DNA of 64,000 bases, taken from NCBI RefSeq assembly GCF_020386615.1, contig NZ_CP077769.1, positions 620,001 through 684,000 on the forward strand, written 5' to 3'. This document shows, piece after piece, positions 38,338 through 45,173 of this stretch. The stretch is from Chitinophaga pendula (GTDB lineage: Bacteria; Bacteroidota; Bacteroidia; Chitinophagales; Chitinophagaceae). The notes under the pieces were generated by a model, which saw only the letters and a list, made by a program, of their open reading frames with translations, ran no database searches and was not told the DNA's origin. Positions within the stretch are counted from its first letter, which is position 1. The number at the start of each line of letters is the position of its first letter. The position numbers were made by a program, and so were the translations under genes.

Positions 38338-38811
38338 ATGACACAAGCACAATTGGATGCCCAAAAAACACAACGATCCTCCATCAATCCTTCCTCATGC
38401 AGTCCCTTCATCATCGGGTTTGTAGACTCCCGTGTCATCCAGAATGGCAAACCCGACGGCTTGTTTTTTATCGACACTAACGGCACCATCGATGACAGGA
38501 GACATGGACTGACCGGCAGTACAGGTGAAGGTACTAACCACCTGAGCGCTGCTTGCAAGCTCAATGCTTACATCGCCTGGGTCGCCTATGGTTTCAATCC
38601 CTATGATAGTGTGCAGATACAGGTGATAGGCAACAGCGCTGCCTGGGGCGCCAAAGGCCAGCCCTTTCCCGCAGGAGACGATGTATTTACGGGCCAGGTG
38701 GTCAATCCCGTTGGCGGAAACTACCAGATAGAACTGGCTGTTAAGCCGGCGAATGCCCCCAATTTTGTCCACCCGCAGACAAAACTCGATATGAACGTAG
38801 TCTCCCAATAA
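38338..38811 (+). CDS. AidA/PixA-like protein A1
   Basis: 157 residues, no signal peptide. The pattern FIIGFVDSRVIQ, GLFFIDTN, CKLNAYIAWVAYGFNP, WGAKGQPFP, DVFTGQV and FVHPQTKLDMNV follows the order of AidA/PixA inclusion-body proteins. It is clearly paralogous to the gene at 39614 (same length of 157) and more distantly to its downstream neighbour, 32 bp away. PixA and AidA form intracellular inclusions or are quorum-controlled in other bacteria; the function here is unknown. The assignment rests on pattern only. Confidence 0.7.
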   Translation: MTQAQLDAQKTQRSSINPSSCSPFIIGFVDSRVIQNGKPDGLFFIDTNGTIDDRRHGLTGSTGEGTNHLSAACKLNAYIAWVAYGFNPYDSVQIQVIGNSAAWGAKGQPFPAGDDVFTGQVVNPVGGNYQIELAVKPANAPNFVHPQTKLDMNVVSQ

Positions 38812-38843
38812 TCCTTTTTGACACCCCTTAAAATCATGACCCC

Positions 38844-39320
38844 ATGGCAGTTAATAATGCAAGAGATTTCGTAGTCTCCAAAAAGCAAATAGGTATCGTA
38901 TTTGACACCGCCTACCTGAGAACGCAGCCTTCCGGCTCCGGACCCGACACCGGCATCTATATGGTAGACAATGCACTGGCCGAAGGCAGTTCGGATGAAG
39001 ATGGCCAGGAACTGGTTACCGTCTGTAAAGTGAACGACACCGTTAGTTGGTATGCAGTACCCATGAACCCTACCCTGAATGACACCGTAGTCATCACAGG
39101 ATGGTCATTCAACAATGGTGATACCTACGATATATTCAATGGCGGACAAGGCAAACCTGCCAGCGTAAATGGTGAGGATACCGGCAATTACTGGGCGGGT
39201 AAAGTGTTCAAAAGCACAGATGGAACCGAAGTCGGCTATCAGCTGCAAATACTCATCACTTATGGCGCAGATGGTTACCAGCATCCCATTAACTGGGACC
39301 CCTTCATTGTCGTGAAATAA
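38844..39320 (+). CDS. AidA/PixA-like protein B1
   Basis: 158 residues, no signal peptide. Order of motifs: QIGIVFDTAYL, IYMVDNALAEG, LVTVCKVNDTVSWYAVPMNP, VITGWSFN, YWAGKVF and HPINWDPFIVVK. The VxDT...W..VP and WDPFI ending match the AidA/PixA family better than the A protein does. It is co-transcribed with A1 and followed by a terminator. Its paralogue is at 40113. The A and B proteins may assemble together; that is inference. Confidence 0.75.
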   Translation: MAVNNARDFVVSKKQIGIVFDTAYLRTQPSGSGPDTGIYMVDNALAEGSSDEDGQELVTVCKVNDTVSWYAVPMNPTLNDTVVITGWSFNNGDTYDIFNGGQGKPASVNGEDTGNYWAGKVFKSTDGTEVGYQLQILITYGADGYQHPINWDPFIVVK

Positions 39321-39375
39321 CCACTATTTATCCCTTTAGTACGCATAACAACAAACGCTACACCTAACAGGTAGC

Positions 39376-39405
39376 AAAAGGCGTCTCTCATGGGAGGCGC
39401 CTTTA
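39376..39405 (+). terminator. Terminator of the A1-B1 pair
   Basis: Eleven-base arms aaaggcgtctc / gaggcgccttt with one G-U; weak T run. The same position behind B2 also holds a hairpin, and both are preceded by the 20-base identical cataacaacaaacgctacac. Confidence 0.7.
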
Positions 39406-39447
39406 CATCTTTATCAACACAGCGCTCGTTCACATACGATCTACCGA

Positions 39448-39613
39448 CCGGCAGGTATTTCTACCTGACTAAAAATTCCAGGGTAATACGCTGATCTGAT
39501 GATGATGAATCCGACACCTTTGTAGTGTGAATGAAGCGCTTCCACATACCCCGGGTCGAAGCCGAAAAACCTTTAACCGAGTAGGCAATTTAACCCCCTC
39601 AAAACCATGTACT
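39448..39613 (+). repeat. Duplicated leader, copy 2 (before A2)
   Basis: Near-copy of 38165-38337 with the same elements in the same order, including CAnnTTTG at 39515. It marks the second copy of a duplicated block of about 1.28 kb. Confidence 0.8.
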
Positions 39614-40087
39614 ATGACACAAACACAATCTGCGACGGAAAAACTTTCCAGTATCAATCCCGGCGACTGTAGCATCTGGGTCCTGGGATTTGTAGATGCT
39701 GGTATCGTACAAGATGGAAAACCAGATGGACTTTATTTTATAGATACCAATGTCAACGCAGGTATTATTTCGGCTTCTTCTGAGAACCCCTCAGAAGCTA
39801 CCAACAGCCTTAATACACTTTGTTCGAATAATGACAACATCGCATGGACCGTGTACGGGTTCAGTCCATACGGCGGTACCAACTTCCCCCAGATCTATTA
39901 TATCGGCGGCAGCAACGTGTGGGGCGCCGACGGCCAGCCTTTCCAGATCTCATCCGATATGGATGTATTCACCGGAAAAGTAGAAAGCACCAGCGGTGGC
40001 AGCTATGCCATCAACCTCTACGCCAAACAAGCCACCACCGGCAAATTCGTACAGCCGTCCACCACACTCAATATCACCGTTCAATAA
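39614..40087 (+). CDS. AidA/PixA-like protein A2
   Basis: 157 residues from the ATG at 39614, chosen because it matches the start of A1 (MTQ-Q) and follows the duplicated leader. It shows WVLGFVDAGIVQDGKPDGLYFIDTN, NIAWTVYGFSP, VWGADGQPFQ and DVFTGKV. It differs from A1 mainly in the loop around residues 48-65 and after residue 90. Same proposed role as A1. B2 follows after 25 bp. Confidence 0.7.
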   Translation: MTQTQSATEKLSSINPGDCSIWVLGFVDAGIVQDGKPDGLYFIDTNVNAGIISASSENPSEATNSLNTLCSNNDNIAWTVYGFSPYGGTNFPQIYYIGGSNVWGADGQPFQISSDMDVFTGKVESTSGGSYAINLYAKQATTGKFVQPSTTLNITVQ

Positions 40088-40112
40088 TTTCCCATTGTAA
40101 AAAAGATTGCTC

Positions 40113-40601
40113 ATGTCTCAGGAAAAAACAACACCCCCCTCGCAAGCATTCGTAACACCACAAACACAAATAGCACTTGCCATAGATACCGCCTATGTAA
40201 TAGGCCAGAAAGGACCCGCTACCAAATCCGGTAAAAAGGTGTTTATGATGGATAACCACCGGTCGCAGAACAGTACAGACGAAGGTGGAGACGAACTAAG
40301 CACCGTTTGCAAAGTAGGAGATACCATCAGCTGGTACGTAGTACCGCTAGACCCTACTACCGGACATACCGTAGAGATCTACGACTGGAAGTTCTATGAT
40401 GAATCCCAATCCTACAACATATTCGGTATCCCGCAGGATAAACCCCAAAAAGACCCTAATTATCCTTCCTATTGGCTGGGAGTATTGCAAAAGCCCTCCA
40501 TGAACCAAAAGGTGTGCTATAACCTGTATATCAACATCCATTACGGCAACGGTCAGGTATATCCCTTTACCTGGGACCCCTTCCTGATCGTTAATCCTTA
40601 A
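40113..40601 (+). CDS. AidA/PixA-like protein B2
   Basis: 162 residues from the ATG at 40113; a TTG six bases earlier is possible. It shows IALAIDTAYVIG, VFMMDNHRSQ, STVCKVGDTISWYVVPLDP, YDWKFYD, YWLGVLQ and YPFTWDPFLIVNP. It carries an extra N-terminal Thr/Pro-rich stretch relative to B1. It is the second member of the second A-B pair and converges on the cysteine-rich peptide genes. Confidence 0.75.
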   Translation: MSQEKTTPPSQAFVTPQTQIALAIDTAYVIGQKGPATKSGKKVFMMDNHRSQNSTDEGGDELSTVCKVGDTISWYVVPLDPTTGHTVEIYDWKFYDESQSYNIFGIPQDKPQKDPNYPSYWLGVLQKPSMNQKVCYNLYINIHYGNGQVYPFTWDPFLIVNP

Positions 40602-40674: not shown

Positions 40675-40707
40675 AAAAAAGTCGTCTCCAACAGGAGACG
40701 ACTTTTA
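40675..40707. terminator. Bidirectional terminator between B2 and the cysteine-rich peptide gene
   Basis: Perfect arms aaaagtcgtctcc / ggagacgactttt (13 bp), 4-base loop, with an A run before and T after. Confidence 0.9.
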
Positions 40708-40727: not shown

Positions 40728-40916
40728 TCAATTACGCGGAGGGATATACCGGCAACTACCAAATAAGCAGACGCAATCAGGATAACCACCAAACTGACAT
40801 CCAAAGCCGTTACAGGTGCCAAAACAGATAGGTACGCCGGCGCCGGTTCCGCCACCAGCTACACCTTTTAATTCGTTACGGCTAAGGGTGTTGCTGAAAC
40901 TTTTCAGTTTTTTCAT
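40728..40916 (-). CDS. Double-glycine-leader peptide with six-cysteine knottin-like core (1)
   Basis: 62 residues. The leader MKKLKSFSNTLSRNELKGV ends at AGGG, the Bacteroidota GG-type bacteriocin/natural-product leader. The core then runs TGAGVPIC to the end with six Cys in the spacing C-x3-C-x4-C-x7-C-x1-C-x4-C and ends PPRN. That spacing falls within the ranges of cystine-knot miniproteins (including cyclotide-like ones). Only one Ser and one Thr lie in the Cys region, so lanthionine rings are unlikely. It follows the second peptide by 64 bp on the same strand. Processing protease and transporter are not in the window. Confidence 0.8.
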   Translation of the reverse strand: MKKLKSFSNTLSRNELKGVAGGGTGAGVPICFGTCNGFGCQFGGYPDCVCLFGSCRYIPPRN

Positions 40917-40980
40917 GTTTCTTAGGATTTTAATGATAAATATGGGAAATGATGACGTTTGGGTGGTGCTACTGGACCCA

Positions 40981-41178
40981 TCAGAAGGAGGTGCCGGCAG
41001 GAAAAGTATCCCTGCTGCTCACGCAAATATTGCGGGCATTACAGTAACAGGAAAACGAAGGGCAATCAAAAATGATACTACAGGGAGCATTCGGACAGCT
41101 GGCAGCCACCGGCTTACCACCGCCTCTGATATGCCGCAGTTCATGACGGGAAATAGGTAACAGGGCGATTTTTTTCAT
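40981..41178 (-). CDS. Double-glycine-leader peptide with six-cysteine knottin-like core (2)
   Basis: 65 residues. A shorter leader MKKIALLPISRHELRHIR ends in GGG, sharing (L/I)SRxEL(K/R) with the first peptide. The core has six Cys spaced C-x4-C-x5-C-x4-C-x1-C-x5-C, with SIIFDCPSFSCYC in the middle, resembling the spacing of squash trypsin-inhibitor knottins. It ends in a Thr/Ser/Gly tail with no Cys. It is the upstream gene of the pair; the plus-strand tRNA-Leu starts 177 bp further. Function unknown; antimicrobial or inhibitor activity is a guess. Confidence 0.78.
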   Translation of the reverse strand: MKKIALLPISRHELRHIRGGGKPVAASCPNAPCSIIFDCPSFSCYCNARNICVSSRDTFPAGTSF

Positions 41179-41355: not shown

Positions 41356-41439
41356 GCGGAGGTGGCGAAATTGGTAGACGCGCTACTTTGAGGTGGTAGT
41401 GCCTGAAAGGGCTTGGGAGTTCGAATCTCCTCCTCCGCA
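41356..41439 (+). tRNA. tRNA-Leu (GAG)
   Basis: Acceptor gcggagg / cctccgc, D-arm with ggtagac, anticodon arm ctact-ttGAGgt-ggtag, a long variable arm (gcctgaaagggct), and T-arm gagttcgaatctc. Type II tRNA, close to E. coli tRNA-Leu(GAG). The 3' CCA is not encoded. Confidence 0.95.
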
Positions 41440-41452
41440 CACAAACTGAATT

Positions 41453-42836: not shown

Positions 42837-43046
42837 TTAATAATAAATCCAGATTGGCTTACCTTCTTTATCATAAATGTCAAATGCTCTTCTGTCTTTA
42901 AAGAACTGTGTTATCCGCCAGCTCTGATCATAGCCTTCCTGGACAGCTTTCTCAAATGATAGCCCATCTTTTCAAAGGACTTTCTCACGTTTCGCATTGT
43001 TCTGCTTCGCGGCCAGCTTACTTTTTTTGTTTTTATACCGTTTCAT
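42837..43046 (-). pseudogene. Interrupted small gene overlapping the response-regulator stop
   Basis: A 70-codon minus-strand frame starts at an ATG (43046) inside the last codons of the response-regulator gene (ATGAAACGGTATAA overlap). It reads MKRYKNKKSKLAAKQNNAKR, hits a TGA after codon 24, and then continues in the same frame with DGLSFEKAVQEGYDQSWRI, KDRRAFDIYDKEGKP and IWIYY to a TAA at 42837-42839. The second half looks well coding. Most likely a gene disabled by one nonsense mutation, formerly translationally coupled to the regulator. A sequencing error is possible. Confidence 0.5.
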
Positions 43047-43743
43047 CAGCTGGACAGATCAACTTATAACCGATCCCCCTGATATTAATGATCTGTACTT
43101 CTGTATTATCCCGCAACAATTTTCGCAGGTGCGTCATAAACACATCCATACTACGTGTATTGTAGTAACTGTCATCGCTCCATATCTTCAGCAGGGCCTC
43201 CTGCCGTTCCAGCACATTGTTCTTCCGTTGTATCAGCAACTCCAGCAATGCCACTTCCTTAAATGACAGGCTATGTACGCCGGATATCGTCTTCAGGGTC
43301 TGATGTACCGTATCCAGTATGGAATGGCCGAAATGATACACCGTCACTTTGGTGACAGGCGCTATGACCTTCGCATTACCGAAACGCATCAGCAACGCTT
43401 CAATGCGTACCAGCAACTCATCCATACTAAAGGGCTTTTTCAGGTAGTCGTTACCACCTGTCTTAAAACCTTTTACTACATCCTTCGCCAACGACTTGGC
43501 ACTGACGAAAATAATAGGGACCTCGTGGTCCACTTTCCGGATCTCTTCCGTTACCATATACCCGTCTTTCGAGGGCAACATGATATCCAGCACACAGATA
43601 TCCGGCTGGAAACGGTGGAAGGTATCTATCACTTGCCCTCCATCCGTAACGATCTCTACTTCGTAACCACTGGTTTTTAAACCATCGCTGACAATACGTG
43701 ATAAAAATGGTTCATCTTCGGCGTATAAAATTTTATAACTCAT
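43033..43743 (-). CDS. OmpR/PhoB-family response regulator
   Basis: 236 residues. The receiver domain has AEDEPF near the start, the phospho-acceptor Asp in CVLDIMLPSKDG, IFVSAKS and the Lys in NDYLKKPFS. The C-terminal winged helix has DTRSMDVFMTHLRKLLRD and IRGIGYKLI. It overlaps its kinase by 4 bp. OmpR-type regulators bind direct repeats with about 10-bp phase, and three such repeat promoters lie just upstream of the kinase. It is thus the likely activator of those units. Confidence 0.93.
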   Translation of the reverse strand: MSYKILYAEDEPFLSRIVSDGLKTSGYEVEIVTDGGQVIDTFHRFQPDICVLDIMLPSKDGYMVTEEIRKVDHEVPIIFVSAKSLAKDVVKGFKTGGNDYLKKPFSMDELLVRIEALLMRFGNAKVIAPVTKVTVYHFGHSILDTVHQTLKTISGVHSLSFKEVALLELLIQRKNNVLERQEALLKIWSDDSYYNTRSMDVFMTHLRKLLRDNTEVQIINIRGIGYKLICPADETV

Positions 43744-45173
43744 TCTATTGAGGGAAGTTTTATGATAAATATGCAGCCTTTACCAGGCTCACTTTGTACG
43801 TTAATAGTGCCTTCATGCATATCGATGATCTGCTTTACATAACTTAATCCTAACCCCGACCCCTTTACACTATGTATATCTCCTTTAACAGGTACGCGGA
43901 AAAATCGTTCAAAGATCTGATCATGATAAATGGCAGGAATACCGGGTCCATTGTCCTTAAAGGTGATCACCGTCCACTCTTCATCTGCTTCACAACGGAT
44001 CACCATTCGCAGAGGTTTATCTGCATACTTGATCGCATTTTCTATCAGGTTGTAGAATACATCCGTTATGTGTACAATATCGCCGTCCACAAAACAGGGC
44101 TCGGGAAATCCGATAAACTCACATTCCGCATGCACATTCCGGAATTGTAACTCCATCGCCCGGATCATTTCCTTCAACACCACTTGCACATCGAAAAAGG
44201 TCTTTTGTAAGGTAAACTGTAACTGGTTGTTACTTAAGCTCAGCACCTTTTCTACCATGGCGTCCAGGCGGCGTAGTTCCAGCCGTCCTATGTCCAGGTA
44301 ATTCTTCAGCTTCTCAGGATCTTCCGTCAGGTTGTATTTGATGATAGACTCCAATGCCAGCGCCACCGTAGCGATAGGCGTTTTGATCTCATGCGTCATA
44401 TTGCTGGTAAAAGCCACCCGCGCATCGGCATATAGCTGCCTGCTCCGCATCAGCTTAAGAATATAGTAAAACGCCACGCCCGTCAAAACAACCATCAGTA
44501 CGGAAGATGCCAGGTAATAACGCATCCTGTACCAGGCTACCTTATTCAGCGAAGTAACCAGCAATTGATATTTGTACAGGTGTTCCAGGTTATAAGACAC
44601 CCGCTTGCTCACATAGGCATAGTCCTTATTATCACTCGCATCATTACTCAACGCTCCTCCATAGGGATACAACCGGTGGCTATATCCTCCTTTAAACCCC
44701 ATCGATCTCATTCCCTCTGCCACTAACTTATTCATAGAAACTAACGATATGCTGTCGGTACGGTAAATATCCTGCATCGCTCCCGAATTAATAAAATGCG
44801 CCACACCATGAGAAGGAGAGGCCTTTTTACGAAAGGTGAGCCGGAATACGATCACAGAGCTATCCTCATTCTGGTTGGCCTCAAATCCTTTACTGATATT
44901 ACTACCACGGGTGTCGTCGAATCCCTGCCTGATCTGCACCCATTCGGGAGAAAGAAAATATTCATGGAAATATTCGTATTGAGAGGAATCAGACTGACAG
45001 CTCAGGTACAGGTTCTTTTTTGCGGTGTTGGTAAACATATTGTCGATATCCTGCACGATGTGCGATCGCTGCTCGATGAATAGCTGGGAGAGCCAAGCTA
45101 CTTGTAATATCACGCTCACAACTATCGCCAGTATGACAAGGGGATATGTATATTTTGCCGCGTATGATTTCAT
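43740..45173 (-). CDS. Membrane sensor histidine kinase
   Basis: 477 residues. Helix about 8-28, an extracytoplasmic sensor region to about 210, helix about 215-235. The H-box SNMTHEIKTPIATVALALES carries the phosphorylated His. The N-box is NLIENAIKYAD, with DNGPGIP, IFERFFRV and GSGLGLSYV of the ATPase domain. RprX-like in the general Bacteroidota sense. It is translationally coupled to the regulator (ATGA overlap). The sensed signal is unknown. It is divergent from the first TTTAAC promoter, 50 bp away. Confidence 0.92.
   Translation of the reverse strand: MKSYAAKYTYPLVILAIVVSVILQVAWLSQLFIEQRSHIVQDIDNMFTNTAKKNLYLSCQSDSSQYEYFHEYFLSPEWVQIRQGFDDTRGSNISKGFEANQNEDSSVIVFRLTFRKKASPSHGVAHFINSGAMQDIYRTDSISLVSMNKLVAEGMRSMGFKGGYSHRLYPYGGALSNDASDNKDYAYVSKRVSYNLEHLYKYQLLVTSLNKVAWYRMRYYLASSVLMVVLTGVAFYYILKLMRSRQLYADARVAFTSNMTHEIKTPIATVALALESIIKYNLTEDPEKLKNYLDIGRLELRRLDAMVEKVLSLSNNQLQFTLQKTFFDVQVVLKEMIRAMELQFRNVHAECEFIGFPEPCFVDGDIVHITDVFYNLIENAIKYADKPLRMVIRCEADEEWTVITFKDNGPGIPAIYHDQIFERFFRVPVKGDIHSVKGSGLGLSYVKQIIDMHEGTINVQSEPGKGCIFIIKLPSIE

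Follow-up and report, generated by a model that had tools for sequence, protein, structure and literature searches.

Two six-cysteine peptide genes of Chitinophaga pendula belong to a large one-genome family of GG-leader peptides with candidate knottin cores

We analysed a stretch of 64,000 nucleotides from Chitinophaga pendula (contig NZ_CP077769.1, positions 620,001 to 684,000; this whole stretch is called the window) and found two short open reading frames (ORFs) on its minus strand that probably encode precursors of secreted cysteine-rich peptides. Precursor peptide 1 (40728..40916, 62 aa) and precursor peptide 2 (40981..41178, 65 aa) both start with ATG, are separated by 64 bp, and contain six cysteines each with gaps of 3-4-7-1-4 and 4-5-4-1-5 residues, exactly as an earlier note made from the letters alone had recorded. 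The same note assigned them to the double-glycine (GG) leader type used for export in Bacteroidota, and this reading held, because a leader with conserved hydrophobic residues and GG precedes each core. The leader of peptide 1 (residues 1-23, 40848..40916, minus strand), delimited by the leader columns of the family alignment A3 described below and by a sub-threshold match to NF047798, ends in LSRNELKGVAGGG, and that of peptide 2 (residues 1-21, 41116..41178, minus strand), which is built as in its paralogues, ends in ISRHELRHIRGGG. Both leaders thus end in GGG, and the putative cleavage of peptide 1 falls after the second or third Gly. The cores on the same strand comprise residues 24-62 of peptide 1 (40731..40847), with a predicted beta-hairpin at 48-51/54-57, and residues 22-65 of peptide 2 (40984..41115), with a predicted hairpin at 44-46/51-54; the mean predicted local distance difference test scores (pLDDT, blocks 31-60) were 70-77 and 68-82, respectively.

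Neither window peptide had a match in Pfam or PHROGs, and NCBIfam gave sub-threshold leader matches only. NF047798 scored 14.9 bits against peptide 1 (cut-off 23.5) and did not list peptide 2 at E<=10, while TIGR04149, a model of GG peptides modified by radical S-adenosylmethionine (radical-SAM) enzymes, scored 9.3 and 11.4 bits for the window peptides, under its cut-off of 25.

With a single peptide as query, searches of the organism's own genome, which is one contig of 7.66 Mb (G000:C1 in the coordinates below), yielded 48 and 38 matches at E<=10, counting the query itself. When an alignment of 30 peptides from these searches (A1) was used as the query, at least 83 matches reached E<=1e-3 among the best 150 of 268 candidates, which were those scored. 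In the fetched stretches 88 ORFs scored E<1e-3, of which 81 had six cysteines, three had eight, three had four, and one stop-interrupted copy had five (the ORF counting rule took three of these five). The cysteines that the earlier note wished to see conserved in homologues are therefore present in most of the family, a count to be read with the fact that the profile was itself built from six-cysteine peptides. The layout C-C-C-CxC-C was found in 71 of the 88 ORFs and C-C-CC-C-C in three members. Two matches lacked the Gly motif at the expected position and were excluded; the remaining 86 members occupy 44 sites, each separated from the next by more than 10 kb. A hidden Markov model (HMM) built from 68 paralogues with the window pair omitted still recovered peptide 2 at E 4.3e-13 and peptide 1 at E 4.7e-11, whereas the best of 16,897 ORFs from Markov-shuffled loci reached E 0.045 at equal search size. 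Judged by sequence, both window peptides belong as orphans to a one-genome family of about 85.

We then aligned 70 peptides picked by the C-C-C-CxC-C layout (A3), so that invariance at the cysteine columns is there by choice. In the leader, one Arg and the GGG show little or no variation. The entropy exceeds 3 bits in most non-cysteine columns of the core, and also in several leader columns; the second and third loops range from 2 to 14 residues, and the first loop has 3-5 residues in 67 of the 70 peptides (3-4 in 59). In two close pairs of paralogues with computable core dS, the ratio of replacement to silent substitution rates (dN/dS) of the core was 0.16 and 0.27; the core of a third close pair had 21 silent changes and five replacements, and a fourth pair was far diverged. 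Because of these low ratios and the silent excess in the third pair, some cores are maintained, apparently with lasting tasks. The family also decays, as two copies (G000:C1:2361044-2361205 and 3526187-3526339) are stop-interrupted. Peptides P0003 and P0011 share the same core behind different leaders, and P0001 and P0006 have nearly the same leader in front of diverged cores, which looks like an exchange of leaders and cores.

The earlier note had also suggested looking for a C39-type peptidase with an ATP-binding cassette (ABC) transporter in the genome, and such an exporter was found, linked to nine paralogues and not to the window pair. The cluster (G000:C1:4,207,648-4,214,598) lies 3.5 Mb from the window pair, and its nine family members are all on one strand at G000:C1:4,210,462-4,212,870. 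Upstream on the same strand is a 548-aa protein with Pfam matches to peptidase C39 (49.5 bits, from profile position 18), VKOR and Thioredoxin_4; downstream, also on the same strand, are a 733-aa protein with peptidase C39, ABC membrane and ABC ATPase domains and a 171-aa protein with an HlyD_3 match. The VKOR match of the 548-aa fusion is the only one in the genome, and DsbB was not found there by a search that found it in 6 of 14 control genomes. VKOR and DsbB form disulfides de novo and pass the electrons to quinones. Since the only VKOR match sits in the family cluster and DsbB was not found, the cores are likely to be disulfide-bonded; on the sequence evidence, this lone VKOR inside the main cluster is the strongest argument for it.

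We compared twelve such fusions (A2, taken from 20 distinct proteins at 31 loci). The loop and CxxC cysteines of VKOR and the CxxC of the thioredoxin domain were invariant, partly by choice, as the filter required VKOR cysteine motifs and a later CxxC. In the C39-like domain, the catalytic Cys column held Cys in none of the twelve and the His column held His in one; five of the twelve had Cys in the column next to the catalytic one. Because the catalytic residues are missing in this way, the degenerate C39-like domain of the fusion probably binds leaders without cutting them.

To see how far the peptides and the fusion occur together, we used genome searches in which at most 81 candidates were scored for each of 79 genomes of the genus and at most 66 for each of 98 genomes drawn from the bacterial family. 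The layout sought was that of A1, and genomes scoring zero may hold other layouts. In the genus, 13 of 79 genomes had A1 matches at E<=1e-3: at least 77 in the own genome (best 81 candidates scored), 33 in G127, six in G146, four in G123, two in G126, and one in each of eight others. VKOR was present in all 13 genomes with A1 matches compared to 37 of 79 overall (Fisher p 1.3e-5, kinship ignored), and in 12 of the 12 peptide-bearing genomes besides the own one it lay within 5.5 kb of a peptide; 24 genus genomes had VKOR and no A1 match. In the family draw, nine of the 98 genomes, the own included, had a match at E<=0.01, with a best value of 7.0e-7 among the other eight. Searching 5.8 billion proteins returned 13 and 7 proteins, one of them a Chryseobacterium protein (P0013) with the same six-cysteine layout; each of the two window peptides was listed on two contigs. 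Across the fetched stretches of five genomes, which took in only part of G127, G123, G126 and G146, the cysteine count was even in 135 of 136 matches, and the odd one was stop-interrupted. In G146, seventeen GG-leader matches of the six-cysteine type (E<1) follow one another in tandem over 4 kb (G146:C2:30070-34004, L219), with VKOR adjoining.

Starting from the fusion instead, we scanned genome records with A2, obtained 282 relatives and retained 79 of their loci, which come from Chitinophaga, Mucilaginibacter, Pedobacter, Sediminibacterium and others. A small GG-leader ORF began 38-499 bp downstream of the fusion at 62 of the 79 loci (1.5-kb search), a C39-bearing exporter was present at 53, and an HlyD-like protein at 42. 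Among the 75 GG-leader ORFs at these loci, 73 had at least two cysteines, and the count was even in 71 of these 73; on the mirrored control strand only four ORFs were found, with 0, 1, 1 and 5 cysteines. As the ORFs beside the fusion were chosen irrespective of cysteine number, the even counts point to paired cysteines. Near two of the fusions, in Chitinophaga varians (L229, 10079-10267) and C. fulva (L273, 10078-10269), we observed GG-leader peptides of the C-C-CC-C-C layout with a sub-threshold WAP-domain match.

Knottins (inhibitor cystine knots) have six cysteines in a set order at roughly set spacing, and both window peptides show this order and rough spacing. The structure prediction proposed in the earlier note was carried out with 17 and 16 of 18 found proteins, and the PDB neighbours of the two models were almost exclusively knottins: by Foldseek, all nine matches of peptide 1 were cyclotides and 14 of the 15 matches of peptide 2 were knottins, mostly squash inhibitors, none of them significant. 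In sequence and profile searches, the family gave no significant match to knottins. The knottin layout claimed in the note stands for cysteine order and rough spacing; peptide 1 is alone among the 70 peptides in fitting cyclotide spacing, and none has the exact squash spacing 6-5-3-1-5. Cyclotides carry a conserved Glu in loop 1, which is not present in peptide 1 (loop 1 = FGT). For peptide 2, the note had described a squash-like D-C-P-x3-C-x-C; the D-C-P start and the C-x-C are real, but the actual string is D-C-PSFS-C-Y-C, with four residues between two cysteines that are three residues apart in squash inhibitors. The first loop of squash inhibitors has six residues and a basic P1, whereas that of peptide 2 is PNAP, with four residues and no Lys or Arg. 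Given also the short first loop of the paralogues, protease inhibition, which the note had offered as a possible function, found no specific support. Overall, the interpretation in the note is partly supported.

Other members with leaders of the same kind appear to carry another scaffold. For one peptide (G000:C1:4747860-4748051, L188), all 17 PDB sequence matches were named defensins or venom toxins (best E 1.3e-3), and for a second (G000:C1:2895653-2895964, L186), all 18 were named scorpion potassium-channel toxins, a designer toxin or a defensin (best E 7e-3). We take the folds of these matches to be cysteine-stabilised alpha-beta (CS-alpha-beta). By the names of their matches, L188 and L186 are defensin-type peptides of a bacterium with a C39-type leader. 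In total, five members from the genome fit the bacterial defensin cysteine pattern given in an excerpt of PMC11561630. Pfam defensin or toxin matches were found in four of the five, all below cut-off; four of the five were also searched against the PDB, and the two besides L188 and L186 had no sequence match there.

Taking these results together, we consider it rather probable, on sequences and structure models, that each of the two ORFs codes for the precursor of a secreted miniprotein with three disulfides, likeliest of the knottin fold, which would be matured in trans by the 4.21-Mb cluster and would probably serve antagonism. We infer leader recognition, the order of the steps, service in trans, the knot topology and the function as follows. 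The exporter would use its C39 domain to recognise the SRxELKxIxGGG leader and cleave it at its Gly motif, and would then pass the core to the periplasm and out with the HlyD-like partner. The degenerate C39-like domain of the fusion would hold the same leader, while its quinone-linked VKOR and its thioredoxin domain would make the disulfides of the core. The scattered copies, the window pair included, would be served in trans by the same machine. The likeliest use would be antagonism against other microbes, with many binders on few rigid scaffolds; we favour it by analogy, because bacteroidetocins are the nearest tested case.

The fold and the function in this explanation have competitors of different weight. 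Export and oxidation could be the same and the pairing different, either EGF (epidermal growth factor)-like (1-3, 2-4, 5-6) or that of another three-disulfide fold, as C-x-C stands at positions 4-5 there too. In the PDB search with the A3 profile, the weak matches included EGF modules about as often as knottins, and 17 of the 70 peptides have a spacing that EGF modules permit. The other 53 do not have it, the first loop of 3-4 residues in 59 peptides also speaks against it, and knottins were nearly alone among the model matches (9/9 and 14/15, none significant), so we regard a different pairing as unlikely. More room must be given to another function, in which the mature peptides are signals, enzyme inhibitors or surface or matrix components instead of toxins and their variety mirrors many specific partners. 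At E<=0.1, the leaders of 17 of the 70 members resemble ComC pheromone leaders and those of 13 resemble class II bacteriocin leaders; 26 of the 70 cores have a net charge of zero or below; no immunity-like family is among the recurring neighbours shown for the peptide clusters; and purifying selection acts on the cores of the two pairs with computable core dS. On the other side, about 85 different cores would, in our judgement, be unusual for a pheromone family, and the kinds shown among the recurring neighbours (sigma factors, kinases, regulators and outer-membrane proteins, named from sequence reading) are generic. Such a function is a serious possibility, if the less probable one. The low charges and the missing immunity-like family tell against antagonism.

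The cysteines might also serve thioether (lanthionine) or radical-SAM modification and not disulfides. Five LanC-like matches over cut-off in the genome and TIGR04149 matches at E<=0.1 in 12 of the 70 members would fit this, but the closest of these LanC-like matches is 20.7 kb away from the nearest identified member (the search did not extend to other lanthionine synthetases or to radical-SAM enzymes), the family cluster holds VKOR and thioredoxin domains, and the even counts in 135 of 136 matches are not required by thioether rings; we think this quite improbable. Least credible of all is that the ORFs arose by chance or are decayed genes without a product. A few copies are indeed stop-interrupted (G000:C1:2361044 and 3526187), but the leave-out HMM beats the shuffled loci, silent changes exceed replacements per site in the close-pair cores with computable dS, and the same kind of neighbour occurs in many genera.

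The surroundings of the window pair were also inspected. A terminator-like hairpin with a 13-bp stem (40677..40706, both strands) closes the peptide unit and a convergent neighbour; two such sites were found, where shuffled sequences had 0.6 on average. To the left of the peptides are four ORFs of about 160 aa (38338-40601), labelled AidA/PixA-like in the earlier note, which had no Pfam match and whose labelled family is not among the printed recurring neighbour groups of the peptide clusters. To the right is a tRNA-Leu(gag) at 41356-41440, and beyond it lies a pair of response regulator and histidine kinase genes on the minus strand (43033-45173).

A wider proposal, for and against which we see equal reason, is a venom-like platform in which one conserved leader, together with one exporter and a single quinone-linked machine for disulfide formation, would turn out about 85 different rigid miniproteins on at least three scaffolds of the plant and venom kind (C-C-C-CxC-C knottin, C-C-CC-C-C knottin and CS-alpha-beta defensin), with the same machine serving other even-cysteine cores across Bacteroidota. 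If this were true, bacteria would produce many knottins and defensin-type peptides and have an enzyme dedicated to their folding. They would offer a natural and genetically simple way to produce scaffolds whose folding is difficult in the laboratory, together with a large set of candidate antimicrobials or inhibitors. It would also provide a concrete case for the convergence of these scaffolds between bacteria and eukaryotes, and the C39-like, VKOR and thioredoxin fusion of Bacteroidota would gain a testable substrate.

The closest known kind of system is that of the bacteroidetocins (class IIf bacteriocins). As described in excerpts of PMC6671954, these are likewise small GG-leader cysteine peptides of Bacteroidota with a linked C39/ABC exporter, thiol oxidoreductase and transmembrane protein; their GG cleavage was seen by mass spectrometry, their migration is altered on reduction, and deletion of the thiol oxidoreductase or transmembrane gene attenuates activity. 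The same excerpts give four cysteines for bacteroidetocins A and B, at least two for the wider set, and a likeness to class IIa, whereas the peptides here mostly have six, arranged as in knottins or defensins. Here, VKOR and thioredoxin are fused behind a C39-like domain, about 85 precursors occur in one genome, and the exporter and fusion adjoin nine paralogues, not the window pair. The five-transmembrane protein of the bacteroidetocins may be a separate VKOR.

Knottins such as cyclotides, squash inhibitors and spider toxins share with the window peptides the cysteine order, the predicted hairpin core and the PDB neighbours of both models; they differ in that the peptides here have a bacterial GG leader, no significant sequence match and a first loop of mostly 3-5 residues. 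The likeness to CS-alpha-beta defensins concerns the five same-genome peptides noted above: the bacterial defensins of PMC11561630 were, according to the excerpt, filtered for predicted signal peptides, while the peptides here have GG leaders and the window pair has another layout. A related leader of the Chryseobacterium type is already named 'bacteriocin-like' by NCBI (NF047798, leader_Chryseo 'bacteriocin-like protein'), and 27 of the 70 members match this model at E<=0.1 (best 3.3e-4); it is a leader-only model of 18 positions, for which window peptide 1 remains below cut-off. In the open-licence PubMed Central literature, which leaves subscription papers uncovered, none of the matches listed described a bacterial knottin family or this fusion together with GG-leader peptides. 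Prochlorosins, which are lanthipeptides made by LanM, combine many variable cores with one conserved leader, and their scattered precursors are served by one enzyme. The peptides described here resemble them in conserved leaders and variable cores, and differ in that the linked enzyme is a VKOR/thioredoxin fusion and not LanM.
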